Shown: piece after piece, positions 41,120-54,289 of the stretch | Numbering within the stretch: the stretch's first letter is position 1 | Layout of the letters: each line of letters begins with the position of its first letter | Assembly (NCBI RefSeq): GCF_017592825.1 | Contig: NZ_JAGFMD010000009.1 | Location: 1 to 64,000 of the forward strand | Reading direction: 5' to 3' | Source: Roseivirga sp. E12 | GTDB taxonomy: Bacteria; Bacteroidota; Bacteroidia; Cytophagales; Cyclobacteriaceae | DNA: 64,000 nt | Program-made: the position numbers and the translations under genes | Notes under the pieces: model-generated | The model's input: the letters and a program-made list of their open reading frames with translations, nothing else | What the model was told of the DNA's origin: nothing | Databases searched by the model: none

Positions 41120-41233
41120 ATAATCACTCAATACTAAAAAAATTAACTACACTACTATTATTCTATATTGATCATAATAATCAATTAATTAGAATAGTAT
41201 ATTTAAATGATTCAAATAATTAACATCTCAAAA

Positions 41234-43189
41234 ATGACCAAAAGACTGACTTATACACTATTTTTCACATTTTCTTTAGTCTTCTTAGCTCACCATTCAT
41301 CAGCTCAACAGACATTGACTTGGATGGACCTTGTACAAGTCTCAATATCAGGGGACACCATAACCAAATCAAGCTCAGGAACAGATTGGACTGCTGGTGC
41401 AGCATCAGAAGAGCGATTAGACTACCTTACTGATGGATGGATAGAAACAATTGTCAATGAAACCAACTTGCATAGAGCTATTGGGCTTAGCGAACAAAAT
41501 ATAGATGCCGGTTTGAATACCATAGATTTCATGTTTTTGCTTTTAGCAAATGGCAACATACAAATTAGAGAAAACAATACCGTAATAAGCCAAAACACGC
41601 CTTATCAAACTGGTGATACGTTACGCATAGAGCGCTTGGGAGGTGACATATTGTACAAGAAAAATGGCACAACAATTTATACCTCAACACAAACTTCCGT
41701 ATTGCCACTTATTGTAGATCTAAGCTTGAGAGATCAGGGAGCCTCTCTTATCAAAATATCATCATCGCTTTCTTTTCTTGACCCCACCAGTCAGCCTCCC
41801 CCAATCCAACAGTCGATTAGCTGGAAGGACACTGTGGGTGTGACCTTTATGGATAACAAAATAATCCGAACTGCTGCAGGCACGGAGTGGACAGCCGGAG
41901 CGGCATCGGTAGAGAAATTGGACTACCTTACTGACGGCTGGGTGGAAACTGTTATCCATGAAAACTATACCCAACGTGCAATTGGTCTTAGTGAACAAAA
42001 CATAGATGCCGGTTTAAATACTATTGACTTTATGTTTTTGCCTTTGGCCATTGGTAACCTACAAATTAGAGAGAATAATAGCGTAATAAGCCAAAACATA
42101 TTATATCAGACGGGTGATACGCTGCGGATTGAACGACTTGGAGGTAACATACTGTACAAGAAAAACGGAATTATACTCTACACATCAACTCAAATTTCAA
42201 CATCTCCACTTATAGTAGATTTAAGCATGAGAGATAGGGGATCATCCCTAATGAGCATTTCTACCTCCTCCTCATTCATCAATCACAACAATACTCAACC
42301 TCTCCCTGTGGAGCAATCAATTAATTGGACAGACACAGTTGATGTAACGTTTATTGGTGATAAAATTATCAAATCGGCTTCCAATACTGACTGGACGACA
42401 GGGGCAGCATCAGTAGAGAGATTGGAATATCTTGAAGATGGTTGGCTGGAGACTATTGTTAACGAAACCTATACTCAAAGAGCATTTGGCTTGAGTGAGT
42501 TCAACTTAGATGCCGGCTTAAACACCATTGACTTCATGTTATTGCTACTATCAAACGGATACCTGCAAGTAAGAGAGAATAACACTATCATCAGTCAAAA
42601 CACCCCCTACAGTTCCGGTGACACCCTACGTATTGAACGCCTTGGGAGCAACATTTTGTACAAAAAAAACGGAAGTATTATCTACACTTCTACGCAAACT
42701 TCAACATCACCGCTTTTGGCAGATTTAAGCTTCAGAGATTACGGTGCTTCATTAATGAGTTTGTCTACATCTTCTTCATTCTTCAATAACGATAATGACA
42801 CAAACAATGGTCAATGGGGTAAACTCGGCAACACTCTTTACCATCTTGACTCTGTAACTATTGGAACCGATATCCCAATAGAAGGTCACCTACTAAGCGT
42901 AAAGGGCAAAATTGCCGCACAAGGAGTGAAGGTTACTTTAGACGGCTGGGCTGACTTTGTTTTCAAAAATGAGTACGATTTAATGTCTATTAAAGAACTT
43001 CAGGTGTTCATTGAAAAGTATGGCCACCTACCTGATGTCCCTAAAACAAGCGAGGTGCTTTCCCAAGGCATCAACCTTGGAGAAATGAACAAGCTATTAC
43101 TTCAAAAAATAGAGGAGCTCACGTTACATTTGATACAACAAAACAAACGAATTGAAAAACTTGAAAGCGAGATTAAGAAGAAGAATTAA
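41234..43189 (+). CDS. Triple-repeat surface protein with tail-fibre-type C-terminus
   Basis: This 651-residue exported protein has a signal peptide (about 1-24, ending HHSSAQ). Three repeats of about 167 residues follow, each with DWTAGAASVERLDYLTDGW, IGLSEQNIDAGLNTIDFMF and GDTLRIERLGGNILYKKNG. The C-terminal region (GVKVTLDGWADFVFKNEYDL, HLPDVPKTSEV) and a final coiled coil (IEELTLHLIQQNKRIEKLE) are typical of Bacteroidota surface proteins related to tail-spike trimerisation domains. The repeats resemble beta-sandwich lectin-like modules. The frame opens at 41207; the ATG at 41234 gives the signal peptide. It is probably an adhesin or a trimeric surface fibre. Confidence 0.82.
   Translation: MTKRLTYTLFFTFSLVFLAHHSSAQQTLTWMDLVQVSISGDTITKSSSGTDWTAGAASEERLDYLTDGWIETIVNETNLHRAIGLSEQNIDAGLNTIDFMFLLLANGNIQIRENNTVISQNTPYQTGDTLRIERLGGDILYKKNGTTIYTSTQTSVLPLIVDLSLRDQGASLIKISSSLSFLDPTSQPPPIQQSISWKDTVGVTFMDNKIIRTAAGTEWTAGAASVEKLDYLTDGWVETVIHENYTQRAIGLSEQNIDAGLNTIDFMFLPLAIGNLQIRENNSVISQNILYQTGDTLRIERLGGNILYKKNGIILYTSTQISTSPLIVDLSMRDRGSSLMSISTSSSFINHNNTQPLPVEQSINWTDTVDVTFIGDKIIKSASNTDWTTGAASVERLEYLEDGWLETIVNETYTQRAFGLSEFNLDAGLNTIDFMLLLLSNGYLQVRENNTIISQNTPYSSGDTLRIERLGSNILYKKNGSIIYTSTQTSTSPLLADLSFRDYGASLMSLSTSSSFFNNDNDTNNGQWGKLGNTLYHLDSVTIGTDIPIEGHLLSVKGKIAAQGVKVTLDGWADFVFKNEYDLMSIKELQVFIEKYGHLPDVPKTSEVLSQGINLGEMNKLLLQKIEELTLHLIQQNKRIEKLESEIKKKN
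41312..42790 (+). repeat. Three in-gene tandem repeats of about 500 bp
   Basis: Repeat units start at 41312, 41813 and 42317, so periods are 501 and 504 bases. Units share most protein motifs but have diverged at many synonymous sites, so the array is not very recent. It lies inside the surface protein gene at 41234-43189. Confidence 0.85.
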
Positions 43190-43288: not shown

Positions 43289-43993
43289 ATGTTTATAGTA
43301 CCAGAACAAATTACAGACGGAGGCCCTTGGTATGCTGAAACACATATCACGGACAACTTAATTGTTGAACCATGGAATGCCTTCTCTTCTTTAGCCATAG
43401 CTGCTCCTGCGATCTATTTTCTCTGGAAAATCCGAAAGAACCCTAAGCAATACGGTTTTCTTCTAGCAGCAATTCCCTTTTTGTTCCTAAACGGGCTAGG
43501 CAGCACCCTTTTTCATGGCTTAAGAACATCTAGGGTTTTCCTCTTAATGGACTTTATGCCCGCGCTAATACTCACGCTGATGATTACCGTTTATTTCTGG
43601 TCTCGCGTATTACCCAAATGGTGGATGAGTTTTGTAGTAATCACACCAATATTCTTGATGCGATTTGGGGTAATTGACCTAATTCCCGGACAAGGAGGCA
43701 TTAATACTTCTTATATGATTAGTGGTATAGCGTTTCTACTACCAGTCTTCTTAATCCTAAGAAAGTATCAGTTCAAAAAAAGTATCAACATTATAATTGG
43801 TGCTATTTGCTTTGTTCTTGCCATCTATTTTAGACAAGTCGATAAAGAATTCACAGAAATTGTCGCATTTGGTACACACTTCCTATGGCACATCTTCTCT
43901 GGTATTGGTGCCTTCTTATTGGCTGACTATCTTTATTTCATTCGAAATAGAGAGTTGGAAGCAAAGGCAAACTTAAGACCAGCTAGTTCCTAA
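43289..43993 (+). CDS. CREST superfamily (alkaline ceramidase-like) membrane hydrolase
   Basis: This 234-residue protein has seven predicted membrane helices. The CREST metal-hydrolase pattern is visible: EPWNAFSSLA near the start, Ser and His in GSTLFHGLRTS, Asp in LLMDFMPAL, and two histidines in GTHFLWHIFSGIG near the end. The superfamily includes alkaline ceramidases, hemolysin III and PAQR receptors. A lipid amidase or related role is likely, and sphingolipids do occur in Bacteroidota. It stands 88 bases before the Rieske operon on the same strand; whether it is co-transcribed is uncertain. Confidence 0.78.
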   Translation: MFIVPEQITDGGPWYAETHITDNLIVEPWNAFSSLAIAAPAIYFLWKIRKNPKQYGFLLAAIPFLFLNGLGSTLFHGLRTSRVFLLMDFMPALILTLMITVYFWSRVLPKWWMSFVVITPIFLMRFGVIDLIPGQGGINTSYMISGIAFLLPVFLILRKYQFKKSINIIIGAICFVLAIYFRQVDKEFTEIVAFGTHFLWHIFSGIGAFLLADYLYFIRNRELEAKANLRPASS

Positions 43994-44081
43994 GATTGGT
44001 ACGCACTGTCGGTTTGCTAACAGCTTTTCTTTTTGAAATTGAATTACTTAGCTTTAGTTAAAACAACTAACACTTTTTAGT

Positions 44082-45695
44082 ATGCAAAAACCTGTAGCGG
44101 TTGCCAAATTTTCATCCTTAGGCGAAAAAGAACCTACTCATGCCTTAGTCTCTTCAACAGACCTTGTCGTCATCCGATATGGTGACGAAGTATCGGTACT
44201 TTATGGTCGTTGCCTTCACAGAGGTGCTTTACTCTCTGACGGGCATGTAGATGGCCATAATTTGATCTGTGGGTTGCACAATTGGGACTATCGAATAGAC
44301 ACTGGTGTGAGCGAATACAACAACAGTGAGTTTTTGAATAAGTTCGCCTCCAAAATTGAGAATGATGAGGTAGTCATAGATGAGCAAGAGGTTATTGATT
44401 TTGAGGTCTCAAGTCCCGCTCCTTTCAATCGTGATGAGTACTTAGGGGAATATGCGGACACGCATCCAGAATCCACGGAACCTTATACCCGCTATATTAA
44501 AGAGCTTGCTCAAAATGGTTTGAAAAACTGGGGGCATCATGGCCCAACAGAAGCCATGGGTGTAGAGAGGAATACGCTTCCAAAATGGGAAGACATTCAA
44601 TTCTTACCTGCTCAGCTTTCCAGAAGGCCGCTATTGGATCACGAAAGTGTTGGAACGAAAACCATTATTGGTCCGAATGCTAAAAAACCGCTCGAATTAG
44701 ATATACCGCTGTTTGTTTCTGACATGTCATTTGGTGCTCTATCAAGAGAAGCAAAAATTGCTCTGTCAAAAGGAGCCGAGATGGCCGGAACGGGCATCTG
44801 CTCAGGTGAAGGGGGAATGCTTCCAGAAGAACAAGAAAGCAATGCGAGATACTTTTATGAATTAGCTTCCGCGCAGTTTGGTTTTTCTTGGGACAAGCTG
44901 AAGAATGTACAGGCCTTCCACTTCAAAGGTGGTCAAGGTGCAAAGACCGGAACTGGCGGCCATTTACCTGGGCATAAAGTATCGAAAGAAATTGCCGAGG
45001 TAAGAGGCTTGAATGAAGGCGAATCGGCTATCTCACCTGCTACCTTTCCAAACTTTCATGGCGTTCAAGACTTTAAGGATTTTACTGCAAAAGTGAGAGA
45101 GGTGACTGGTGGTATTCCCGTAGGCTTTAAAATCTCTGCGGCTCGATTAGAAGAAGACATTGACTTTGCCTTAGAGGTCGGTGTTGACTATATCATTCTT
45201 GATGGACGCGGTGGTGGAACTGGTGCTGCCCCAACAATATTGAGAGATAACATCAATGTGCCGACTATTCCAGCCTTGGCTAGGGCAAAAAAGCATTTGG
45301 ATGATCGAAAGGCCGAGGGCGTATCCCTTGTTATTACAGGTGGATTGAGAGTTGCCGAAGATTTTGCCAAGGCCATGATGATGGGTGCAGATGCAGTTGC
45401 TGTATCAAACTCAGCGCTGCAAGCCATTGGATGCTTGGGTATGCGGGCCTGCAACACCAACAATTGTCCAGTAGGGATCGCCACTCAAAAAGAGAATTTA
45501 AGACAAAGACTAATCATACAGTCTTCGGCCAAACAATTACATAACTTCTTTAGCGCTACGACTGATTTAATGAAAGTAGTAGCCCGGTCTTGTGGGCATG
45601 ATGATTTCACCAAATTTAATCACTCAGACTTGAGCACATTCAATTGGGATATCCATAAATTGGCTGGAATCCCCTATGCCGGGATAAATCCTTAA
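44082..45695 (+). CDS. Rieske-domain glutamate synthase-like FMN oxidoreductase
   Basis: This 537-residue fusion has a Rieske [2Fe-2S] domain at about 1-105 with ligands C44-x-H46 (GRCLHRG) and C63-xx-H66 (CGLHNWDY). A glutamate synthase large-subunit-like FMN barrel follows at about 165-525, with SDMSFGALSREAKIALSKGA, GGQGAKTGTGGHLPG, LDGRGGGTGAAP and the cysteine cluster RACNTNNCPVGIATQ, which in GltB binds an iron-sulfur centre. It lacks the glutaminase domain, so it is unlikely to be a normal glutamate synthase. It is the first gene of an operon with two more Rieske fusions. Electron transfer from the FMN barrel to a membrane carrier is a plausible role. Confidence 0.88.
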   Translation: MQKPVAVAKFSSLGEKEPTHALVSSTDLVVIRYGDEVSVLYGRCLHRGALLSDGHVDGHNLICGLHNWDYRIDTGVSEYNNSEFLNKFASKIENDEVVIDEQEVIDFEVSSPAPFNRDEYLGEYADTHPESTEPYTRYIKELAQNGLKNWGHHGPTEAMGVERNTLPKWEDIQFLPAQLSRRPLLDHESVGTKTIIGPNAKKPLELDIPLFVSDMSFGALSREAKIALSKGAEMAGTGICSGEGGMLPEEQESNARYFYELASAQFGFSWDKLKNVQAFHFKGGQGAKTGTGGHLPGHKVSKEIAEVRGLNEGESAISPATFPNFHGVQDFKDFTAKVREVTGGIPVGFKISAARLEEDIDFALEVGVDYIILDGRGGGTGAAPTILRDNINVPTIPALARAKKHLDDRKAEGVSLVITGGLRVAEDFAKAMMMGADAVAVSNSALQAIGCLGMRACNTNNCPVGIATQKENLRQRLIIQSSAKQLHNFFSATTDLMKVVARSCGHDDFTKFNHSDLSTFNWDIHKLAGIPYAGINP

Positions 45696-45708
45696 GGAAG
45701 AACAAACA

Positions 45709-46914
45709 ATGGAAGAAGTATATAAGAGGTCGATTGAGCTGCATGAAAAAATGCAGGGCAAAATCGAAATGACGAACAAGATTGCGGTTGATAATACTGA
45801 TACCTTATCATTGGTCTATTCACCAGGTGTAGCACAGCCTTGCCTAGAAATTGAAAAGGATCCAGAGCGTGCTTATGATATGACCATGAAAGGGAATACC
45901 ATAGCCGTAGTAACCAACGGAACTGCTGTTTTGGGACTGGGAGATATTGGACCATTAGCCTCGCTACCCGTGATGGAAGGCAAAGCCATGCTCTTCAAAA
46001 AGTTTGCGGGCATCAATGCGGTGCCCATCTGTATTGACAGTAATAATACTAGGCACATCATTGAAACGATTACTAGGATAGCGCCAGCATTTGGCGGTAT
46101 TAACCTAGAGGACATTAAAGCTCCAGAGAGCTTCGAAATTGAAGAGAAACTTCAGGACTTGGGCATTCCCGTTTTTCATGACGATCAGCATGGTACTGCT
46201 ATTGTTACTTTGGCTGCTCTTGTAAATGCATGCAAAGTACTAGGCAAAGAATTGAGCGAAATGAAAGTGGTTGTTAATGGCGCTGGAGCGGCCGGTATTG
46301 CCATAGCCAAGTTATTGAGGTGCTTTAACATAGACTCAGACCTCTGCAAACCTGTTAAGCAACTTATTGTCTGTGATAGCAAAGGTGCCATCCACCGTTT
46401 CCGTCACGACCTGAATAAAGCAAAAACGGAGCTCTTGAAGTATTCTAACTTCCAAGATGTAAAAGGAGATATTCATGATGTTATTAAAGATGCCGATGTA
46501 TTTGTTGGTGTGAGTAAAGGCAATCTTTTGACCAAGGATGACATTAAAAACATGGCTCCAAGTCCTGTGATTTTTGCCATGGCCAACCCTACACCTGAAA
46601 TTTTGCCTGAAGATGCCTTCGAAGCAGGCGCTTCGATTGTCGGCACGGGCAGAAGCGACTATCCTAACCAGATTAATAATGTTCTGGCTTTCCCCGGCAT
46701 TTTTAAGGGGGCCTTGTTGGCAAGAGCTGAAACAATAAGTACAGAAATGAAGCTTGCTGCAGCATATGCCATTGCCAGCTCAGTCGAGAACCCTACTCGA
46801 GAAATGGTAATTCCTTCGGCACTCGATACTTCATTGGCAGAAATAGTTGCTAAGGCCGTAGAACAAGCGGTTTATCACGAAAGAGAAATGGAAAAGAAAA
46901 TGGCAACTACCTAA
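45709..46914 (+). CDS. NAD(P)-dependent malic enzyme
   Basis: This 401-residue enzyme oxidatively decarboxylates malate to pyruvate with reduction of NAD or NADP. Its N-terminal malic domain carries the catalytic Tyr/Lys region (LVYSPGVAQPCLEI, NGTAVLGLGDIG) and metal ligands (DDQHGTA). The Rossmann domain has VVNGAGAAGIAIAKLL. The length fits the short bacterial malic enzymes without a phosphotransacetylase tail. It starts 13 bases after the Rieske-GltB gene and 11 before the next small gene, so it is inside the operon. Its product pyruvate is a likely substrate for the TPP enzyme at the end. Confidence 0.92.
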   Translation: MEEVYKRSIELHEKMQGKIEMTNKIAVDNTDTLSLVYSPGVAQPCLEIEKDPERAYDMTMKGNTIAVVTNGTAVLGLGDIGPLASLPVMEGKAMLFKKFAGINAVPICIDSNNTRHIIETITRIAPAFGGINLEDIKAPESFEIEEKLQDLGIPVFHDDQHGTAIVTLAALVNACKVLGKELSEMKVVVNGAGAAGIAIAKLLRCFNIDSDLCKPVKQLIVCDSKGAIHRFRHDLNKAKTELLKYSNFQDVKGDIHDVIKDADVFVGVSKGNLLTKDDIKNMAPSPVIFAMANPTPEILPEDAFEAGASIVGTGRSDYPNQINNVLAFPGIFKGALLARAETISTEMKLAAAYAIASSVENPTREMVIPSALDTSLAEIVAKAVEQAVYHEREMEKKMATT

Positions 46915-46925
46915 GCAGTAACTCT

Positions 46926-47141
46926 ATGTTAGAAATCATCGCGACCATATTGCTACTCCTCTTGGCACTCTACGTTCTTATCGGAATTGTCTTCTACTTT
47001 CCATTTATCAAGAAGGGAGTTCACAAAATAGACGAAGGCGTAAAAGACGCACCAAAGTTTATGAAGGTGCTAATCTTTCCTGGAACAGTAGCCTTATGGC
47101 CAATCTTACTCAAGAAAGTAAAGAAGGGAGAGCTATCATGA
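46926..47141 (+). CDS. Small membrane protein, 71 aa
   Basis: I do not recognise a named family. This 71-residue protein has one strong helix at the N-terminus (about 2-26, MLEIIATILLLLLALYVLIG) and a second weak one at about 47-62 (VLIFPGTVALWPILLK). The loop is basic and it ends KKVKKGELS. Its stop overlaps the next ATG by four bases. Conserved position between the malic enzyme and the Rieske membrane protein suggests an assembly or anchoring role (inference). Confidence 0.72.
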   Translation: MLEIIATILLLLLALYVLIGIVFYFPFIKKGVHKIDEGVKDAPKFMKVLIFPGTVALWPILLKKVKKGELS

Positions 47142-47575
47142 ATGTAAAGCTGCGCAAAAGACATCGGTACATGTGGATGGTTTTAGGGGTAGCCTTACCT
47201 CTACTCTGCCTTGAAGCCATCGAGGCCATTCCTGAAAATACGATCGCAGATATTCCGAGACATTCATGCTCATTGGATATTGGTATTTGTGGTATTGACA
47301 ATGCAGAGTACCCGATTATTATCGAGCAGAGTAAAAGTGCCAATGTTCTGAGTCTAAAAATCAAGGCTCCTTTAAAGTCCGCCTTCACACTCGCTTACTT
47401 GTCAGACACTCAAGAGTTAAATGAGAATGCAAGTCTGCTTGGAGCAATTCACACCATGGGTGATTATAGTTTTGGTCTTGAATCACAGGAAAGTAGTCAA
47501 CGCTATCTGTTACTTGTTGACAAACTGAATAACAAAACTCTTTATCATCAACTAATCGAAAATTCCACAGAATGA
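47138..47575 (+). CDS. Membrane-anchored protein, 145 aa
   Basis: I do not recognise it. This 145-residue protein has a basic N-terminus (MNVKLRKRHRYMWM), one membrane helix at about 10-28 (MWMVLGVALPLLCLEAI) and a periplasmic beta-rich domain of about 110 residues with two cysteines (CSLDIGICGIDN). The frame opens further upstream at 47096; the ATG at 47138 gives the ATGA overlap with the previous stop. It also overlaps the next gene by four bases, so it is coupled on both sides in the Rieske operon. Confidence 0.72.
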   Translation: MNVKLRKRHRYMWMVLGVALPLLCLEAIEAIPENTIADIPRHSCSLDIGICGIDNAEYPIIIEQSKSANVLSLKIKAPLKSAFTLAYLSDTQELNENASLLGAIHTMGDYSFGLESQESSQRYLLLVDKLNNKTLYHQLIENSTE

Positions 47576-48597
47576 GTGTAAACTACGCGGGCATACTGTG
47601 GAATAGGCAGAAGAGGATTTATGACATCATCCTCTTGGTTTTTGTGGTCGCTTATATAGGGCTTTATATTGGTTTTACATCCATTTATAATCCCGAACTG
47701 ACAGCTGAGACCATGATTATTCGAGCAACTGCTACACTGGCATTGCTCCTACTTCATATTATCCTTAGTATCGGTCCACTGTCTAGATTAAACAAACGAT
47801 TCCTGCCTCTGCTCTACAACAGAAGGCACCTGGGTGTCACCATGTTTCTGGTAGCACTAGTGCATGGAATTTTCAGCATACTTCAGTTCCATTCTTTGGG
47901 AAACAAGAACCCATTGATTTCGCTCTTGACTTCAAATGGTAGCTATGATAGTTTGGTACGATTTCCTTTCCAGGTTTTAGGCTTTTTCGCACTGATCATC
48001 TTCTTCCTGATGGCTGCAACAAGTCATGACTTCTGGTTGAAAAACTTAAGCCCGAAAGTCTGGAAAACACTCCATATGCTAGTATATGTGGCATACGGCA
48101 TGATCATTATGCATGTCATGCTGGGTGTAGTACAATTAGAATCATCCCCTTTTCTATATGGCGGGCTTATGCTAGGTATGATGTTGATCATTGGACTGCA
48201 CTTTGCCTCTTCTGTGCTATCTGGGCGAGGTTTAGATCTCAAGTCTGATGGCTATTATTATGCCTGTGATCTGGATGATATTCAGGATGATTGCGCTAAA
48301 GTGCTCACTCTAAATGGTGAGAACATTGCCATCTTTAAATATGACGGCAAGCTTTCGGCTATTAATAATGTATGCAAGCATCAAAACGGTCCTCTTGGTG
48401 AAGGCAAAGTCATAGACGGTTGTGTAACATGCCCGTGGCATGGCTATCAATATGAACCGCATAATGGCACTTCGCCACCACCATTTACGGAGAAGGTATC
48501 TACCTATGAAATTAAGCTAGAGGGCGTCAGAGTTTTCGTAAACCCAGCACCAAAGCCGGAAGGCACCACAATTGAACCTGTAACCTTTGAAAGTTAG
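47572..48597 (+). CDS. Ferric reductase-like membrane protein with Rieske domain
   Basis: This 341-residue protein has about six membrane helices in its first 215 residues. They resemble the ferric-reductase/MsrQ heme b domain, with candidate heme histidines in LLLLHIILS, RRHLGVTMF, ALVHGIF and TLHMLVYVAYGMIIMHVML. A C-terminal Rieske domain follows with C268-x-H270 (VCKHQNGPLGEG) and C287-xx-H290 (CPWHGYQY). Rieske fusion to such a cytochrome-like membrane part is unusual. It would carry electrons between cytosolic Rieske enzymes and heme or quinone in the membrane. The gene overlaps the one before it and ends three bases before the one after. Confidence 0.85.
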   Translation: MSVNYAGILWNRQKRIYDIILLVFVVAYIGLYIGFTSIYNPELTAETMIIRATATLALLLLHIILSIGPLSRLNKRFLPLLYNRRHLGVTMFLVALVHGIFSILQFHSLGNKNPLISLLTSNGSYDSLVRFPFQVLGFFALIIFFLMAATSHDFWLKNLSPKVWKTLHMLVYVAYGMIIMHVMLGVVQLESSPFLYGGLMLGMMLIIGLHFASSVLSGRGLDLKSDGYYYACDLDDIQDDCAKVLTLNGENIAIFKYDGKLSAINNVCKHQNGPLGEGKVIDGCVTCPWHGYQYEPHNGTSPPPFTEKVSTYEIKLEGVRVFVNPAPKPEGTTIEPVTFES

Positions 48598-48600
48598 ACG

Positions 48601-49386
48601 ATGAAAAACGACTTCTATATTGGTTATATGCCCAAGGCTCCTAAAGGAATCGTGCGATTTGTATTGGCCTTTGTGCTAATTCTCTTCGTCATTATGGGAG
48701 GTGTTTCTTATTTCCTTTCCACTTCACATGACCACATTACAAATGGCACATACGAGTTCGGTGAGCTAACAGAGCTGACAGGAGTAATTAGAATGGGACC
48801 CGTTCCTCACATTAGAATCGTTGCTGATGCTGATGGGAAAATAGGGAAGAACATCATGCTGATCGACTTTGGAAAGTTTGGAGCCAAAACCTCTGTAGAA
48901 AAGATGCAGGAGCAAATTGGTTCTAACATCAGTGAGTTCGAAGTTACCATACGAGGAACACTCATTTACCAAGATGGCTTTACCCTTCTTGAGCTTACTG
49001 AAAAGGAAAAAGCCCTGCAGCGGTACGAAAAACTTGAACAAGCCTCTCGGTATCAGCTTTTCCCAACCGCAATGGTTACAAAGTCTCTAATAGGTGAGAT
49101 AGTAGATCCCAAATGTTACTTCGGTTCCATGAAACCAGCGCAGAGCAAGCCTCATCGCTCATGCGCTTCACTTTGCATTTCTGGAGGAATACCTCCTGTC
49201 TACGTAGTGCAAACACCTGAAAAGACGGCAGAGTACTATATTCTTAAAGGCCTTGAAGGCGAAGATTTAAATGATGAGATCTTAGATTTTGTAGCCGACC
49301 CAACGCGTATTGAGGGTATGGTTACTGAATTCGGTGAATGGAAAGTCCTCTATATGGACCCTGAAAAAATTAGACGACTAGAATAA
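48601..49386 (+). CDS. Membrane protein with conserved cysteine motif, 261 aa
   Basis: This 261-residue protein has one membrane helix at about 18-40 (VRFVLAFVLILFVIMGGV). The rest is soluble, with a central OB-fold-like beta region (about 55-135) and a distinctive block at about 165-205: GEIVDPKCYFGSMKP, then HRSCASLCISGGIPPVYVV. The three cysteines and one histidine in that block could bind a metal or iron-sulfur centre. I do not know the family's name or function. It lies between the Rieske ferric-reductase-like gene and the DUF2721-like gene, with a 1-base overlap to the latter. Confidence 0.75.
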   Translation: MKNDFYIGYMPKAPKGIVRFVLAFVLILFVIMGGVSYFLSTSHDHITNGTYEFGELTELTGVIRMGPVPHIRIVADADGKIGKNIMLIDFGKFGAKTSVEKMQEQIGSNISEFEVTIRGTLIYQDGFTLLELTEKEKALQRYEKLEQASRYQLFPTAMVTKSLIGEIVDPKCYFGSMKPAQSKPHRSCASLCISGGIPPVYVVQTPEKTAEYYILKGLEGEDLNDEILDFVADPTRIEGMVTEFGEWKVLYMDPEKIRRLE

Positions 49387-49781
49387 TGGATAACTGGGTC
49401 ATACCGCTAACACTTCTTCCCGGCATTGGTATGATCATCATGTCAACTTCGCACCTCAGCACCGCTACGAGTGACGAAATCAATCAATTACTCAGGGATG
49501 ACCTGTGTGATACCTCGCTCATCAAAAAGAAGATTTCTCAGCTCTACTTATTGAACTTGGCAAAAGTCTGTCTTTACATCAGTGTAGCCGTATTTTCTAT
49601 TGCAGGGCTAATTGAGGCCATTTTCACATTACAATCGTCAATGCACGACAGTGTCATTAGACCAATATTATTAATTATCGGAGTGTCGACCCTTGTATTG
49701 GCTACTCTGATTCTGATTGTTTTCTCTACTCGGAAAGTAAAGATCAAACGAGATCAATTTTTAAACCGCATTAAACCATAG
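49386..49781 (+). CDS. DUF2721-like membrane protein
   Basis: This 131-residue protein has three predicted membrane segments (about 4-22, 55-78 and 92-112) with a short amphipathic N-terminal loop (STATSDEINQLLRDDL). Length and topology resemble DUF2721, a family of unknown function often near metabolic operons. It overlaps the preceding stop by one base (TAATG) and precedes the Rieske-TPP enzyme by four bases. The family assignment is tentative. Confidence 0.65.
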   Translation: MDNWVIPLTLLPGIGMIIMSTSHLSTATSDEINQLLRDDLCDTSLIKKKISQLYLLNLAKVCLYISVAVFSIAGLIEAIFTLQSSMHDSVIRPILLIIGVSTLVLATLILIVFSTRKVKIKRDQFLNRIKP

Positions 49782-49785
49782 ACCC

Positions 49786-51732
49786 ATGGCTACAAAGATG
49801 AAATGGCACAAAGTGCTCGACAATACCGAAGAATTGCCCGAAGGACGAGTGATGTCTGTTACGGCAGAACATCAAGGTATTTGCCTTACTCATTTTGAAG
49901 GTAAGTTCTCTGCGCTCGACAATAGATGTCCTCACCAAGGAGGTCCACTGGGAGAAGGAAGTATTGAAAATGGTCTACTCAGGTGCCCGTGGCATGGTTG
50001 GGATTATCACCCTTGCACAGGAATTGCTCCGGGCTTTGATGATGGTGTAGAAACTTTCCTCACCAAAGTCGAAGGTGATTCCGTCTATGTAGGGATAGAA
50101 GAAGAAGCACCTCATGAAACTACCATATCGGACGTAATGGTAGAGACTATGGTCAACTGGGGAGTGAACAAGGTATTCGGTATGGTTGGACACTCCAACC
50201 TAGGTTTTGCTGATGCCATGCGCAGACAGGAAGAAAAAGGAAATCTCAACTTCTATGGTATTCGCCATGAAGGAGCTGCCGCCTTTGCAGCATCGGCTTA
50301 TGGAAAACTGACGGGTAAGCCTGCAGCCTGCTTCTCTATTGCAGGACCGGGAGCTACAAATCTATTCACTGGTCTTTGGGATGCTAAAGTGGACCGAGCG
50401 CCAATCCTAGCACTTACAGGTCAGGTCGCTACGCAAGTGGTAGGTACTGGAAATTTTCAAGAAGTTGATCTTGTAAAAGCATTTAGTACTGTGGCTGAAT
50501 TCAATCACAGGGTACAGAATAATTCAAAGCATTCTGAGTTGATGTCTTTAGCTGTCAAACATTCTATTCTTAGAAGAGATGTTTCGCATTTAACCTTCCC
50601 AGATGAAGTACAGGAGCTTCCTGCACCTAGTAATGCGGAAGCACAAAACGCTGAAGGCAGAATGCCTGCCCCTCAGATTACTCCTGCACAGGAAAGTATT
50701 GATAAGGCTTTGTCTATGTTCAAAGGAGCCAAGCGACCAGTCATTATTGTAGGGCATGGCGCCAGGTTCCACATGAATGCTATTACCGCTTTTGCCGAAA
50801 GCATCAATGCTCCGATTCTCACTACTTTCAAAGCAAAAGGGCTTATCTCTGATAGTCATCCACTGGGTTGTGGGGTGCTCGGTAGAAGCGGAACTCCAAT
50901 TGCCTCTTGGTTTATGAATGAGGCCGATTTGCTTTGTGTATTTGGTGCTTCTTTCTCGAATCACACAGGTATTACAGATCATAAACCAACCATACAGGTT
51001 GATTTCGATCCATTGGCACTGAGCAAGTTTCATAAGATTGATGCCCCAGTTTGGGGAGAAATCTCAGCTACTGTGAAAATCTTTAGTGATGAATTGTCAG
51101 GAAAGGTAGATACCATTGATCAACGCCCTGAAGTTGCTAAAAGGTGGGCAATATGGAAGTCTGAGAAAGCCAAGCGACTCATTGACGACCGTGGAAATGG
51201 CATCAGCTCTATCGCAGTTTTTGATGCAATGAACAAGGTTGCCCCAGAAAATGCAGTAATGTGTGTAGACGTTGGAAATAATGCCTACTCCTTTGGACGC
51301 TACTTCGAAAGTAAATCACATGACTTCCTTATGTCGGGCTATTTAGGGTCAATAGGCTTTGCCTTCCCTGCTGCTATGGGAGCATGGGCTGCAGTTGGCG
51401 ATACACGTCCTGTTGTAGCAGTTGCTGGAGATGGTGGATTTTGCCAGTACCTTGCCGAACTAACTACTGCTGTTAAGTATAACATGCCAATCAAATTGAT
51501 TTTGCTCAACAACTCTGAGCTTGGAAAGATCTCTAAGGAACAACGTGCAGGAGAATTTGATGTTTGGGCCACAGACCTACATAATCCTAACTTCTCAGAG
51601 TACGCTAACAGCTGTGGAGCAATGGGTATCAGGGTAGAGAAAAGAGAAGATCTGGAGGCTCAGATGGAAAAAGTATTTGCCCATAATGGCCCTGCTTTAC
51701 TTGAGGTAATAGCTGACGTGGGGCTGATCTAA
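49786..51732 (+). CDS. Rieske-TPP enzyme fusion (pyruvate oxidase/acetolactate synthase-like)
   Basis: This 648-residue fusion has a Rieske domain at about 1-105 with C48-x-H50 (RCPHQGGPLGEG) and C67-xx-H70 (CPWHGWDY). A full ThDP-dependent enzyme follows: Pyr domain (E162 in RHEGAAAFAASAYGK), central domain, and PP domain with GDG (about 548) followed by LLNNSELG. It resembles pyruvate oxidase and acetolactate synthase. In pyruvate oxidases FAD passes electrons to the membrane; here the attached Rieske centre could do so. An upstream malic enzyme supplies pyruvate. Substrate and electron acceptor are inferred. It is the last gene of the operon. Confidence 0.88.
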   Translation: MATKMKWHKVLDNTEELPEGRVMSVTAEHQGICLTHFEGKFSALDNRCPHQGGPLGEGSIENGLLRCPWHGWDYHPCTGIAPGFDDGVETFLTKVEGDSVYVGIEEEAPHETTISDVMVETMVNWGVNKVFGMVGHSNLGFADAMRRQEEKGNLNFYGIRHEGAAAFAASAYGKLTGKPAACFSIAGPGATNLFTGLWDAKVDRAPILALTGQVATQVVGTGNFQEVDLVKAFSTVAEFNHRVQNNSKHSELMSLAVKHSILRRDVSHLTFPDEVQELPAPSNAEAQNAEGRMPAPQITPAQESIDKALSMFKGAKRPVIIVGHGARFHMNAITAFAESINAPILTTFKAKGLISDSHPLGCGVLGRSGTPIASWFMNEADLLCVFGASFSNHTGITDHKPTIQVDFDPLALSKFHKIDAPVWGEISATVKIFSDELSGKVDTIDQRPEVAKRWAIWKSEKAKRLIDDRGNGISSIAVFDAMNKVAPENAVMCVDVGNNAYSFGRYFESKSHDFLMSGYLGSIGFAFPAAMGAWAAVGDTRPVVAVAGDGGFCQYLAELTTAVKYNMPIKLILLNNSELGKISKEQRAGEFDVWATDLHNPNFSEYANSCGAMGIRVEKREDLEAQMEKVFAHNGPALLEVIADVGLI

Positions 51733-51734
51733 TC

Positions 51735-51782
51735 CAATGTTTTGACTGAACCTAACATTGTAGGTCATGACACTTTTTGTCA
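51735..51782. other. Two small inverted repeats after the Rieske operon
   Basis: CAATGTT (51735-51741) pairs with AACATTG (51754-51760), and TGACA (51768-51772) pairs with TGTCA (51778-51782). Neither has a proper T run, so this is not a convincing terminator. They may be regulatory sites or mRNA stems between the operon and the next gene. Confidence 0.3.
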
Positions 51783-51838
51783 CTCACTTCATTAAGTAAT
51801 TCATCTCTTTTCGCGCATCGTTGATGTTGCAAAAAGAG

Positions 51839-52684
51839 ATGAAAACAATACTTAATATTCTAATCATATCGGTTCTTAATGGGCTATTTACAAGCCCTTC
51901 CTCAGCCTATAGTGGGCCCACTTATGCAGATAAGAAAACCAAAGAGGTTATAGAGCAAATGATCGAAGCTCATGGGAGCTATGACAAATGGAAAGGTTTG
52001 AAAACCATGTCATTCAAAACTGTCATGCACAGCGATGCACTCGGTTTTCTTAGATTTTGGATTACCGAACAATCCTTTGACATGGCAACAAGAAGGTCAT
52101 TTCATGATTGGCCTTTGATTGGTTCCCAATTGACTTACGATGGTAAAGAGGCTTGGACGGTTAATTGGCGTAATGGTAATCCTCCAAACCACCAGCACTA
52201 CGTATGGTTTTACTATTTGAATTTACCTTGGCTTACTCAAGAAGATCATGTAAAGCTCGGCAAAGCTGAGAAAATCAGTCATGATGCATTTGAAAACGAG
52301 GTTTACAAGGTAGAGATGAGTTATAAGAAATCTCCCATACTGGGTAAATCAAAAAATGACACCTATACCCTATACATTGATGCACGTACATTTTTATTGG
52401 TTGGGTATGAATATACCGTTGGTTACGGCCCATTGCTTGACACACTCAATGTCCCAAAAGACCAAAAAGTCTTTGGTCCTGTTTTAAGGGTGAATACCTA
52501 CACAGCCGAGATTGACGGCCTGAAATTTCCAGCATTAATGACCACTAGCGATACAGAGCAAAAACAGCAATATGGCGATCATGCAGCATACGATTTCAAA
52601 TTTAATTTTGAATTTGACGAATCTCGAATGCAAAAGCCCGCAAATGCCGTGGTGGACACATCGAAGGATATAAGAAAAAAGTAA
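51839..52684 (+). CDS. Exported outer-membrane lipoprotein-sorting-like protein
   Basis: This 281-residue protein has a signal peptide (about 1-24, ending SPSSAYS). The mature domain begins VIEQMIEAHGSYDKWKGL and contains alternating strands (MSFKTVMHSDALGFL, YTLYIDARTFLLVGYEY, LKFPALMTTSD). This fold pattern resembles LolA/DUF1571-like carriers, but similarity is weak. The frame opens at TTG 51821; the ATG at 51839 gives a normal signal peptide. It lies 106 bases after the Rieske operon and ends before a terminator, so it may be a last, separately controlled member of that region. Confidence 0.7.
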   Translation: MKTILNILIISVLNGLFTSPSSAYSGPTYADKKTKEVIEQMIEAHGSYDKWKGLKTMSFKTVMHSDALGFLRFWITEQSFDMATRRSFHDWPLIGSQLTYDGKEAWTVNWRNGNPPNHQHYVWFYYLNLPWLTQEDHVKLGKAEKISHDAFENEVYKVEMSYKKSPILGKSKNDTYTLYIDARTFLLVGYEYTVGYGPLLDTLNVPKDQKVFGPVLRVNTYTAEIDGLKFPALMTTSDTEQKQQYGDHAAYDFKFNFEFDESRMQKPANAVVDTSKDIRKK

Positions 52685-52705
52685 TTCTGTTTTGATTTGA
52701 CCTTG

Positions 52706-52739
52706 AGGCCAGATGCTTTTGTAGCATCTGGCCTTTTTT
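52706..52739 (+). terminator. Terminator
   Basis: AGGCCAGATGC (52706-52716) pairs with GCATCTGGCCT (52724-52734) around a seven-base loop and is followed by a T run (to 52739). It closes the transcript of the exported protein at 51839-52684. Confidence 0.85.
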
Positions 52740-52852
52740 CATTACGGCCAGCCTCTTAAAGTCAGTATCAGCTAGCCGACATTCTTGAGTCAGGAATCTG
52801 ATCGAAAGCAACTTAATATCCTGTATATTGTGTTGACGGAAAAATATCAATT

Positions 52853-53134
52853 ATGAAAGCTATTTGGAACGATGAAGTAATTGCTGAAAGCAACGAAACA
52901 GTGGTAGTAGAGGGAAATCACTACTTCCCACATGACTCCATCAAAAAAGAATATTACAAAGACAGCAGCACACATTCCAACTGCCCATGGAAGGGCATGG
53001 CGAGCTATTACACTATCGAAGTAAACGGATCTGAGAACCCAGATGCCGCATGGTATTACCCTGAAACTTCTGAATTAGCAAAGGGAATAAAGAACTATGT
53101 TGCCTTTTGGAAAGGTGTTAAAATAGAAGACTAA
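52853..53134 (+). CDS. DUF427 family protein
   Basis: This 93-residue cytoplasmic protein matches DUF427 with AIWNDEVIAES at the start, VVVEGNHYFP, the CPWKGMASYYTIEV core and PDAAWYYPETSE. DUF427 proteins are small beta-rich domains of unknown function. Its stop shares one base with the ATG of the zinc-ribbon gene (TAATG), and the next gene follows after one base, so the three form a tight operon. Confidence 0.87.
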   Translation: MKAIWNDEVIAESNETVVVEGNHYFPHDSIKKEYYKDSSTHSNCPWKGMASYYTIEVNGSENPDAAWYYPETSELAKGIKNYVAFWKGVKIED

Positions 53135-53406
53135 TGGGACTGTTTCACTGGAAAAAGAATCCAATACCTACGCCTGAAGGAGTTTGTCCAAACTGTTGGG
53201 GACTTCAAGAGTATGGCGGTAAGGCCATTGACCTTATGGAGGATAAGCAGATTGATGTGAACAACAGCACAACGCGACATGCTTTTATTCAAGATTTTGT
53301 GGTAAGCCATGTGAATGGTATCCAATTAAAAAAACATGCTCAGGGCTATGTCTGCCCTACTTGTCAAAAAGAGTATGCCAAAGACTTAAAAGAGATCAGC
53401 AGATAG
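53134..53406 (+). CDS. Small zinc-ribbon-like protein
   Basis: This 90-residue protein has two CxxC motifs, VCPNCWGLQEYGG near residue 20 and YVCPTCQKEY near residue 75, which would together bind one zinc. The middle is helical (IQDFVVSHVNG). I do not know a name for the family. It is coupled to the DUF427 gene by a one-base overlap and to the next gene by a one-base gap. It is likely a cytoplasmic metal-binding protein. Confidence 0.75.
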   Translation: MGLFHWKKNPIPTPEGVCPNCWGLQEYGGKAIDLMEDKQIDVNNSTTRHAFIQDFVVSHVNGIQLKKHAQGYVCPTCQKEYAKDLKEISR

Positions 53407-53407
53407 T

Positions 53408-54289
53408 ATGAGCCTTGCTTCAATCAAATCCAATTGGTCATTATTAAGTGGTAACGACCCAAAGTCTCTTGCTCCGGCTATTGAGCAAATTCATAGAGGT
53501 GTTCAGTTTATTGCTATGGCAGGCAAACACTATGTAAAAAATGTTCCTGACGACAGTCATACCAACTTAAGGTGGCTTCCACAGGAAGAAGTACTTGCAG
53601 GGAATTGGATAAGGGAACGCAAGGGCAATTTTCGTTTTGCAATGCGATCAAAAGAGCTCACGTTGATTGTATACAATGCCGATATGAAACCTACTTCTGA
53701 GTTTCCTTTACATGACAAAACCAATGACGATGCACTCGCCTGGGTAAAAAGTCAGCTCGCTACTTATGGAAAAGATGCTTCTCTTATGAAGATGGATATT
53801 CATTATGATATACCTCCTCATAAAACCGACAAAGGGGCACCATACAAGTTTGAAATACCGTCTCTCTTCGAGGAAATGGCCAAGCATAGAGCAAACAGCA
53901 ACTTGGCACTAGAATACTTTGCCAAAGCTCATAAAACTGCCTCTACTACAAGAACCTGGCCCCATCACTTCGATCATGGTGTTTACATACCTATGACATT
54001 TGACGATGCAGGCAATGCAACTAAATCTTTCAGCATTGGTATGGGCATTCCCGATCCGGCCAGCGAAGAGCCCTATTATTACATTACCACTTGGTCACAG
54101 GCAGGAGACAACCACTATAAAGATTTGGAAGCACTTCCACATGGAAAATGGATACAAGAACCCTTCAATGGTGCTGTGCTTAAAGTCTCTGAAATAGTAA
54201 AGTCAAAGTCTGCTGCACAGCAATCGAAGATGGTAATGGACTTCCTAAAAGCAGGTATCTCTGCATCAAAGAACATTCTCGGTCTCTAA
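53408..54289 (+). CDS. Hypothetical protein with TWPHHFDHG motif
   Basis: I do not recognise a named family for this 293-residue cytoplasmic protein. Visible features are an N-terminal helical region, an RWLPQEEVLAGNWI segment, and a histidine-rich block TRTWPHHFDHGVYI at about residue 180 that could bind metal. PYYYITTWSQAGDNHY follows. The TWPHHFDHG pattern recalls DUF5996, but overall similarity is not clear. It closes a three-gene operon with DUF427 and zinc-ribbon genes. Confidence 0.7.
   Translation: MSLASIKSNWSLLSGNDPKSLAPAIEQIHRGVQFIAMAGKHYVKNVPDDSHTNLRWLPQEEVLAGNWIRERKGNFRFAMRSKELTLIVYNADMKPTSEFPLHDKTNDDALAWVKSQLATYGKDASLMKMDIHYDIPPHKTDKGAPYKFEIPSLFEEMAKHRANSNLALEYFAKAHKTASTTRTWPHHFDHGVYIPMTFDDAGNATKSFSIGMGIPDPASEEPYYYITTWSQAGDNHYKDLEALPHGKWIQEPFNGAVLKVSEIVKSKSAAQQSKMVMDFLKAGISASKNILGL

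Follow-up and report, generated by a model that had tools for sequence, protein, structure and literature searches.

A ferric-reductase-type membrane unit with a Rieske domain, encoded with two Rieske-tagged oxidoreductases in Roseivirga: a possible electron route across the cell membrane

Introduction

What connects three different proteins that each carry a Rieske [2Fe-2S] domain and that are encoded together in one tight gene cluster? The cluster consists of eight genes on the same strand, here called A to H (44082-51732 (+)), with intergenic gaps of 13, 11, -4, -4, 3, -1, and 4 bases. It lies in the window, by which we mean the whole 64,000-nucleotide stretch of DNA from the marine bacterium Roseivirga sp. 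E12 (contig NZ_JAGFMD010000009.1) that was analysed. The original prediction, made from the letters of this DNA, was that a glutamate-synthase-like enzyme (A), a ferric-reductase-like membrane protein (E), and a pyruvate-oxidase-like enzyme dependent on thiamine pyrophosphate (TPP) (H), all with intact Rieske ligands, form an operon with malic enzyme (B) and four small proteins (C, D, F, and G). The open reading frames (ORFs), the Pfam matches, and the ligands agree with the three Rieske fusions in one tight operon with malic enzyme. C, D, and G are indeed small (Table 1); F, at 261 residues, is not, and it proves to be the most constant partner of E. The description of all three fusions as enzymes fits the domains of A and H, while E is by homology an electron carrier rather than a proven enzyme.

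Our answer is a tentative one, to which we give somewhat less than an even chance: C-D-E-F is a membrane conduit of the ferric reductase domain (FRD) kind with a Rieske port, and this port is served by the Rieske-tagged cytosolic proteins A and H. Taken together, the results suggest an undescribed electron route from metabolism across the cell membrane.

Results

Pfam finds a Rieske domain in A (E-value 9e-12), in E (3e-16), and in H (1.5e-14), next to a Glu_synthase domain in A (PF01645, 2e-89), a Ferric_reduct domain in E (PF01794, 1e-15, over the cut-off), and all three TPP-enzyme domains (N, M, and C) in H. The ligands are present in the translations as C44-x-H46/C63-x2-H66 in A, C268-x-H270/C287-x2-H290 in E, and C48-x-H50/C67-x2-H70 in H. 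The whole genome of Roseivirga sp. E12 (4.70 Mb, 99.93% complete) has seven Rieske matches, of which these are three. Ligands and partners were counted by scanning 140 fetched stretches, which partly overlap, with profiles; the matches to A, E, and H were not deduplicated, and a few stretches had been fetched twice (e.g. L086/L139 and L017/L165). The C-x-H/C-x2-H pattern is kept in 49/49 matches of E, 88/89 of H, and 66/72 of A, and thus the ligands are not a matter of chance. The sole miss for H (L067) is in a stretch at a contig end, whose first base already lies within the gene. The six exceptions for A are four proteins with CDGSH motifs, one that loses its Rieske part to an in-frame TAA (L060), and one in which the ligands are lost (L147). 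High-potential Rieske motifs of the bc1 type are marked by cysteines at extra positions. These cysteines are absent in the motifs of A, E, and H, so all three domains are likely to be of the low-potential ferredoxin type. The best match of the E domain is the ferredoxin of naphthalene dioxygenase (2qpz).

The most conserved part of the cluster is C-(D)-E-F. Among the 49 scanned stretches with E, which come from 48 genomes since L086 and L139 belong to the same one, F is present in all, and in 48 it directly adjoins E or is joined to it in a fusion; C is just upstream of E, on the same strand and within 900 bases, in 48; and D, which is divergent, was detected in 36. A is present in 25 of the 49 and H in 29. 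For many of these stretches, the presence of H or F was the reason for fetching them. Thirteen are unbiased towards C or F, namely eleven E stretches (L154-L164) and two plasmids of Rhizobium that were located through E, and none of the 13 lacks C or F. E and F form a single ORF in L060 and L159, which argues that F works directly with E. By record titles, the hosts of E fall into nine phyla (Bacteroidota, Cyanobacteria, Calditrichota, Gemmatimonadota, Planctomycetota, Acidobacteriota, Myxococcota, Hydrogenedentota, and Alphaproteobacteria), with Balneola counted in Bacteroidota and most of the non-Bacteroidota records being metagenome-assembled genomes (MAGs). The cyanobacterial hosts are Xenococcus, Leptothoe, and Adonisia, and Rhizobium plasmids also carry E.

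Proteins of the FRD family take electrons from a donor in the cytosol and carry them via heme to an outside acceptor. The best curated FRD family for E is MsrQ, at an E-value of 6e-11, below the cut-off of that family. E has six hydrophobic segments, and its positive-inside loops place the Rieske domain in the cytosol in the predicted topology. R84, R85, H86, H98, H168, and H181 are kept in 50/50 aligned rows. H98 in transmembrane helix (TM) 3 and H181 in TM5 would form the surface-proximal heme pair, an assignment made by helix and spacing rather than from a structure. As to a second, cytoplasm-proximal histidine pair, which marks the two-heme type with four histidines, H168 in TM5 is likewise invariant; the TM3 position 14 residues before H98 is Arg84, and an extra invariant His86 follows two residues on. 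The section of PMC3591440 on these residues gives Arg at that TM3 position for bacterial short forms, as in E, and places the TM5 histidine pair of NOX2 13 residues apart (209/222), the same spacing as in E. The C-terminal FAD- and NAD(P)-binding domains of the NOX/ferric reductase long form were not found in E by Pfam, and the Rieske domain is there instead. The delivery of electrons to a membrane heme, part of the original prediction, is therefore a reasonable proposal for a protein that resembles FRD and MsrQ sequences and keeps His-86, His-98, His-168, and His-181 in 50/50 rows.

The structure model of F shows one helix and two OB-like domains; from the positive charge ahead of the helix, the domains are predicted to lie outside. 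All 51 F matches have the motif C-x(11-14)-H-x2-C-x3-C, which in the F of the cluster comprises C172, H185, C188, and C192. No Pfam or NCBIfam model matches C, D, or F at an E-value of 0.01, and G has only a Pfam match below the cut-off. These features of E and F bring to mind MsrPQ, in which the FRD protein MsrQ feeds the periplasmic MsrP in bacteria, as described in the relevant part of PMC5676040. E might similarly pass electrons to F for the reduction or repair of a periplasmic substrate, such as an oxidised residue or a metal ion, with A and H as donors in some lineages. The MsrQ match and FRD homology of E, the predicted anchoring of F with its domains outside, its fusion to E in two genomes, and its C-H-C-C motif would all suit such a function. 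However, a Pfam search of genes A to H detects no molybdopterin-oxidoreductase domain in any of them, and the motif of F could be structural or metal-binding. We give this explanation little credence.

Short secreted-looking proteins that consist of the C-terminal motif domain of F alone, without E, occur in 5 of the 247 genomes of the sample described below (L129-L133). In L141, L144, L158, L159, L161, and L173, E-F is followed by several of the following: GNAT (Acetyltransf_5), PlsC-type, DinB, TANGO2, and ATP-grasp-like genes, and in L159 the ATP-grasp-like gene is joined to a VTT domain. These genes are a second recurrent module. Relatives of TANGO2 have a role in heme trafficking. From such neighbours, seen in several lineages, one could argue that C-D-E-F acts in envelope heme, iron, or iron-sulfur handling or in lipid modification, rather than in respiration. 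However, the neighbours vary by lineage, and none of them is among the window genes tested (43289-54289) or among the annotated genes near E on the two Rhizobium plasmids. We consider this explanation very improbable.

The best solved relative of H is E. coli PoxB (E-value 9e-71), with residues 113-643 of H aligned to residues 4-527 of PoxB. The RHE, GDG-x(20-28)-N, and G-x-G-A motifs are kept in 78/78 H proteins; the first two contain the catalytic Glu and bind TPP, respectively. In the same 78/78, the chain ends 101-102 residues from the start of GDG, and the PoxB chain of 572 residues is aligned only to residue 527, with about 45 residues beyond the alignment. It is the C-terminal tail of PoxB that binds the membrane. 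A tail of this length is absent from H, and therefore another exit for the electrons is expected. H falls short of the curated equivalog level, as its best NCBIfam model, PRK08611, scores 409 bits against a cut-off of 742. Its closest named relatives among the loci kept are from Roseivirga, with 91% identity.

Several further observations concern H. One Croceitalea genome (isolate 3-263-3Z) has two H paralogs (L031 and L044). YjeF_N-type genes are found near H in L016, L019, L029, L036, and L179, both in Bacteroidota and on a haloarchaeal plasmid; the domain is confirmed by Pfam in L016, and the gene in L179 is annotated as NAD(P)H-hydrate epimerase. The H homolog at G088:C2:445186-447120 (L145) has an in-frame TGA reported within the match.

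The 3Fe-4S cysteine motif C-x5-C-x4-C-P-x-G is present in 35/35 full-length homologs of A. Pfam finds no glutaminase (amidotransferase) domain in A, whose 537 residues hold the Rieske and FMN-type (flavin mononucleotide) domains only. A homologs of two Shewanella, one acidobacterium, and L061 carry CDGSH [2Fe-2S] domains in the place of Rieske. These proteins (L167, L168, L169, and L061) have two CDGSH motifs each, and Pfam confirms two CDGSH stretches in each of the three tested (L061, L167, and L169). In L061, the gene for this form of A is about 0.4 kb from H. The swap argues that the N-terminal domain of A is an exchangeable electron port rather than a requirement of the fold.

A second A-like copy at 5108-6751 of L147 (G182, contig 25) has 59% identity and has its Rieske ligands replaced, with the rest of the protein kept. 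The same genome also has a copy of A with 76% identity (L146).

The co-occurrence of these genes was examined in one fixed sample of 247 genomes of the phylum, searched four times (for E, F, H, and A). A was counted if the match covers the Rieske part, and 6 further genomes matched only from residue 165; the ligands of A were checked solely in the fetched stretches. E is found in 9 genomes, and it is these 9 that also have full-length F; H is found in 7 and A in 35. A is present in 8/9 genomes with E and 6/7 with H, compared with 35/247 overall, and E and H share 4 genomes. The Fisher p values are 6e-7 for A-E, 3e-5 for A-H, 3e-5 for E-H, and 1e-16 for E-F, and without the genome of the window they are 4e-6, 2e-4, 4e-4, and 3e-15, respectively; all are too small, because the sampled genomes are related. 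At the limits used, A, E, F, and H were found in none of the six other sampled genomes of the family of the window, and thus the distribution of the cluster is patchy.

A second sample comprised 50 of the 79 available genomes that hold H. The two samples differ in taxonomic make-up and have one genome in common (G295 = G175). E is present in 23/50 genomes with H, compared with 9/247, lying within the fetched H locus in 10 and elsewhere or on another contig in 13. Of these 23 genomes, 18 also hold A with its Rieske part; A of this form is in 32 of the 50, and the CDGSH form is in 3 more. At 80 H loci, A is within 4.2 kb of H in 38 (36 on the same strand), and E is within 4.4 kb in 27 (26 on the same strand). 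All three fusions are together in 19/80 H loci; thus, both by linkage and across the 247 genomes, the trio recurs, in support of the original prediction. A is next to C-E-F with no H beside it in five genomes, in four of which no H was found (G046, G127, G139, and G191); in the fifth, H is on another contig (G273).

Discussion

The mechanism that we propose is as follows. The cytosolic Rieske [2Fe-2S] domain of E would take the place of the usual flavin/NADPH input of an FRD (MsrQ/NOX) conduit. Since this domain is a Rieske, the donor to E is expected to be a one-electron carrier, and A and H fit as donors because both offer a Rieske domain. Both would be soluble oxidoreductases of the cytosol that use a Rieske domain of their own as a plug for single electrons. 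The cofactors of H would be TPP and probably FAD, and its substrate for oxidation would be a 2-oxo acid. Pyruvate is the most likely one, and in Roseivirga malic enzyme B would supply part of it. In PoxB the electrons go to quinone by way of a tail that binds the membrane; in H they would leave via the Rieske domain. Rieske-to-Rieske transfer from H to E would then be followed by passage through the heme(s) across the membrane to F. This membrane-anchored, extracytoplasmic OB-fold Cys/His protein would accept the electrons or form the terminal unit, with C and D perhaps as small accessory subunits of the conduit. A would exchange electrons with the same bus. The direction that we favour is thus from H, and perhaps A, to E and on to F.

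Several observations weigh against this proposal. Neither A nor H is nearby in 15/49 E stretches, and in G248 a glutamate-synthase-like protein without a Rieske domain adjoins C-E-F. No E was detected in 27/50 genomes with H, many of which are incomplete MAGs; H is found on haloarchaeal and mycobacterial plasmids with no E nearby; and 5/9 genomes with E in the 247-genome sample have no H. E is therefore not an obligate partner of H. In Rhizobium, what matches H in the vicinity of E is a distantly related TPP enzyme (125-128 bits). In addition, the linkage of malic enzyme is confined to Roseivirga-like loci. A phylogeny of the Rieske domains, put forward with the original prediction as a check, separated A and E into distinct groups and gave no resolved placement for H; there is therefore no sign in the Rieske sequences that the domains of A, E, and H recognise one another.

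Could the genes instead be redox genes that act independently of one another and belong to one regulon, for stress or for the stationary phase? The Rieske domains of A and H would in that case use other partners, such as a flavodoxin-like FMN reductase for H, and C-D-E-F would be separate, with shared regulation only. The genomes with H and no detected E and the C-D-E-F stretches with neither A nor H, both counted above, are in line with this, as are the neighbours of H. FMN_red-type proteins are near H in 12/80 loci, cyanobacteria included, and a sodium/proton exchanger in 24/80. Both kinds are present near H on a Mycobacteroides plasmid, as a flavodoxin-family protein (318 bits to the FMN_red family of the H loci) and an annotated cation:proton antiporter. 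Flavodoxin-type and antiporter families recur in the H loci of Flavobacteria, and the flavodoxin type in those of cyanobacteria. However, a shared regulon leaves unexplained why E, A, and H all have a ferredoxin-type Rieske domain and recur as a trio, and why A is beside C-E-F without H in five genomes. We regard it as unlikely, though well worth keeping in mind.

An FMN_red/flavodoxin-type gene accompanies H in L178, in L065, L069, L077, and L080, and in eight Bacteroidota loci, and in several of these an antiporter is there too. The pairing is reminiscent of KefF/KefC.

The proposal of a conduit served by A and H can be extended to a widespread, undescribed "Rieske bus", in which an FRD-type transmembrane cytochrome gathers single electrons from several unrelated cytosolic dehydrogenases, each of which has gained a matching [2Fe-2S] plug (Rieske or CDGSH), and passes them to F as an extracytoplasmic OB-fold Cys/His protein of a new kind. 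In this general form we find it possible but doubtful.

How does the cluster compare with known systems? E shares with the FRD family (MsrQ/NOX) the PF01794 domain and six helices and, by analogy, would move electrons from the cytosol to the outside. It differs by a cytosolic Rieske domain in place of the FAD/NADPH domains or of a separate flavin reductase, and its constant partner is F instead of MsrP. With PoxB, POX, and SpxB, H shares the aligned core and the three motifs given above, and it differs from PoxB in the N-terminal Rieske domain and the absence of a tail of PoxB length. A shares the PF01645 domain with the 3Fe-4S cysteines with glutamate synthase (the FMN domain of Fd-GltS/GltB). 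Unlike glutamate synthase, it has no glutaminase domain and hence no built-in means of transferring ammonia from glutamine. In aromatic dioxygenase systems, Rieske-to-Rieske transfer is established. The Rieske domain of E is like the Rieske-type ferredoxins of those systems (2qpz), whereas in the cluster such domains are parts of larger fusion proteins, namely a membrane protein of the heme type and metabolic enzymes.

Some of these architectures are in print. Fusions of CDGSH with Glu_synthase, which have the same enzyme core as A and CDGSH where A has Rieske, appear as an architecture in PMC5859297. The FRD-Rieske fusion was already recorded in 2013, in the passage of PMC3591440 on FRD extensions, where Rieske is named as an electron transfer agent and, within that passage, no pathway is stated. 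The open literature searched yielded no paper that treats the C-D-E-F unit, the fusions of Rieske with a TPP enzyme or with glutamate synthase, or their linkage. The original statement that no such pathway has been described holds to this extent; the fusion of Rieske to FRD, as such, is not new.

The C-(D)-E-F unit is kept in nine phyla by record titles, though C, D, and F match no Pfam or NCBIfam family at an E-value of 0.01, and F is an uncharacterised, widespread partner. If A and H do feed E, this would be a further way to load ferric-reductase-type cytochromes, besides NAD(P)H-flavin domains and the flavin reductase of MsrQ. It would also provide a quinone-independent exit for a pyruvate-oxidase-like enzyme, and a testable role for Rieske- and CDGSH-tagged glutamate-synthase-like proteins.

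What is the function of malic enzyme B in the cluster? Malate oxidation was originally proposed as the source of the electrons, and this part is weakened. Of the 80 H loci, only four (L008-L011), each with Roseivirga in its title, have a malic enzyme of the B type within the cluster; one more (L051) has it at a distance of about 3 kb from H. B may simply be the housekeeping copy, because it is the sole malic enzyme match in the Roseivirga sp. E12 genome. In favour of the malate supply, a distant malic-enzyme relative (536-538 residues, 71-80 bits to B) directly follows H in L010, L012, and L013 and lies one gene further on in L009, all four being Roseivirga-like loci. The feeding of pyruvate from malate is plausible for the relatives of Roseivirga only.

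Other features of the cluster and its surroundings

The features are collected in Table 1. The start of D is the ATG at 47138, while the ORF list places it at 47096. Homologs of G are found in 13/80 H loci.

Table 1. Genes of the cluster and features downstream of it.
Feature	Description	Position	Strand	Length and basis
A	N-terminal Rieske and FMN/[3Fe-4S] glutamate-synthase-like domain	44082..45695	+	537 aa; Pfam, homologs
B	Malic enzyme	45709..46914	+	401 aa; Pfam, NCBIfam
C	Small hydrophobic membrane protein	46926..47141	+	71 aa
D	Single N-terminal membrane helix and divergent domain predicted outside	47138..47575	+	145 aa
E	Six-helix ferric-reductase-domain protein (MsrQ/YedZ-like) with C-terminal Rieske, predicted cytosolic	47572..48597	+	
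F	One membrane helix and two OB-fold-like domains predicted outside	48601..49386	+	261 aa
G	Small membrane protein, no family above cut-off	49386..49781	+	131 aa
H	N-terminal Rieske and PoxB-like TPP enzyme	49786..51732	+	648 aa
Possible last gene of the transcript	Hydrophobic N-terminus, no family	51842..52684	+	280 aa; 109 bases after H
Terminator-like hairpin	13 pairs, T run	52705..52735	+	Terminator scan
DUF5996-like protein	Outside the tight operon	53408..54289	+	

The terminator scan gave no terminator-like site directly after H, and the transcript may extend to the gene at 51842-52684 and the hairpin at 52705-52735. Overall, the scan gave 4 sites, fewer than in shuffles (mean 7.4).

Homologs of the DUF5996-like protein are present in 28/80 H loci and also adjoin A in several other genomes. 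The protein has an invariant WPHHFD and stands beside A or H in many genomes. Upstream of the cluster, 41207-43189 encodes a secreted-looking protein of 660 residues, in which three similar repeats are visible by eye.

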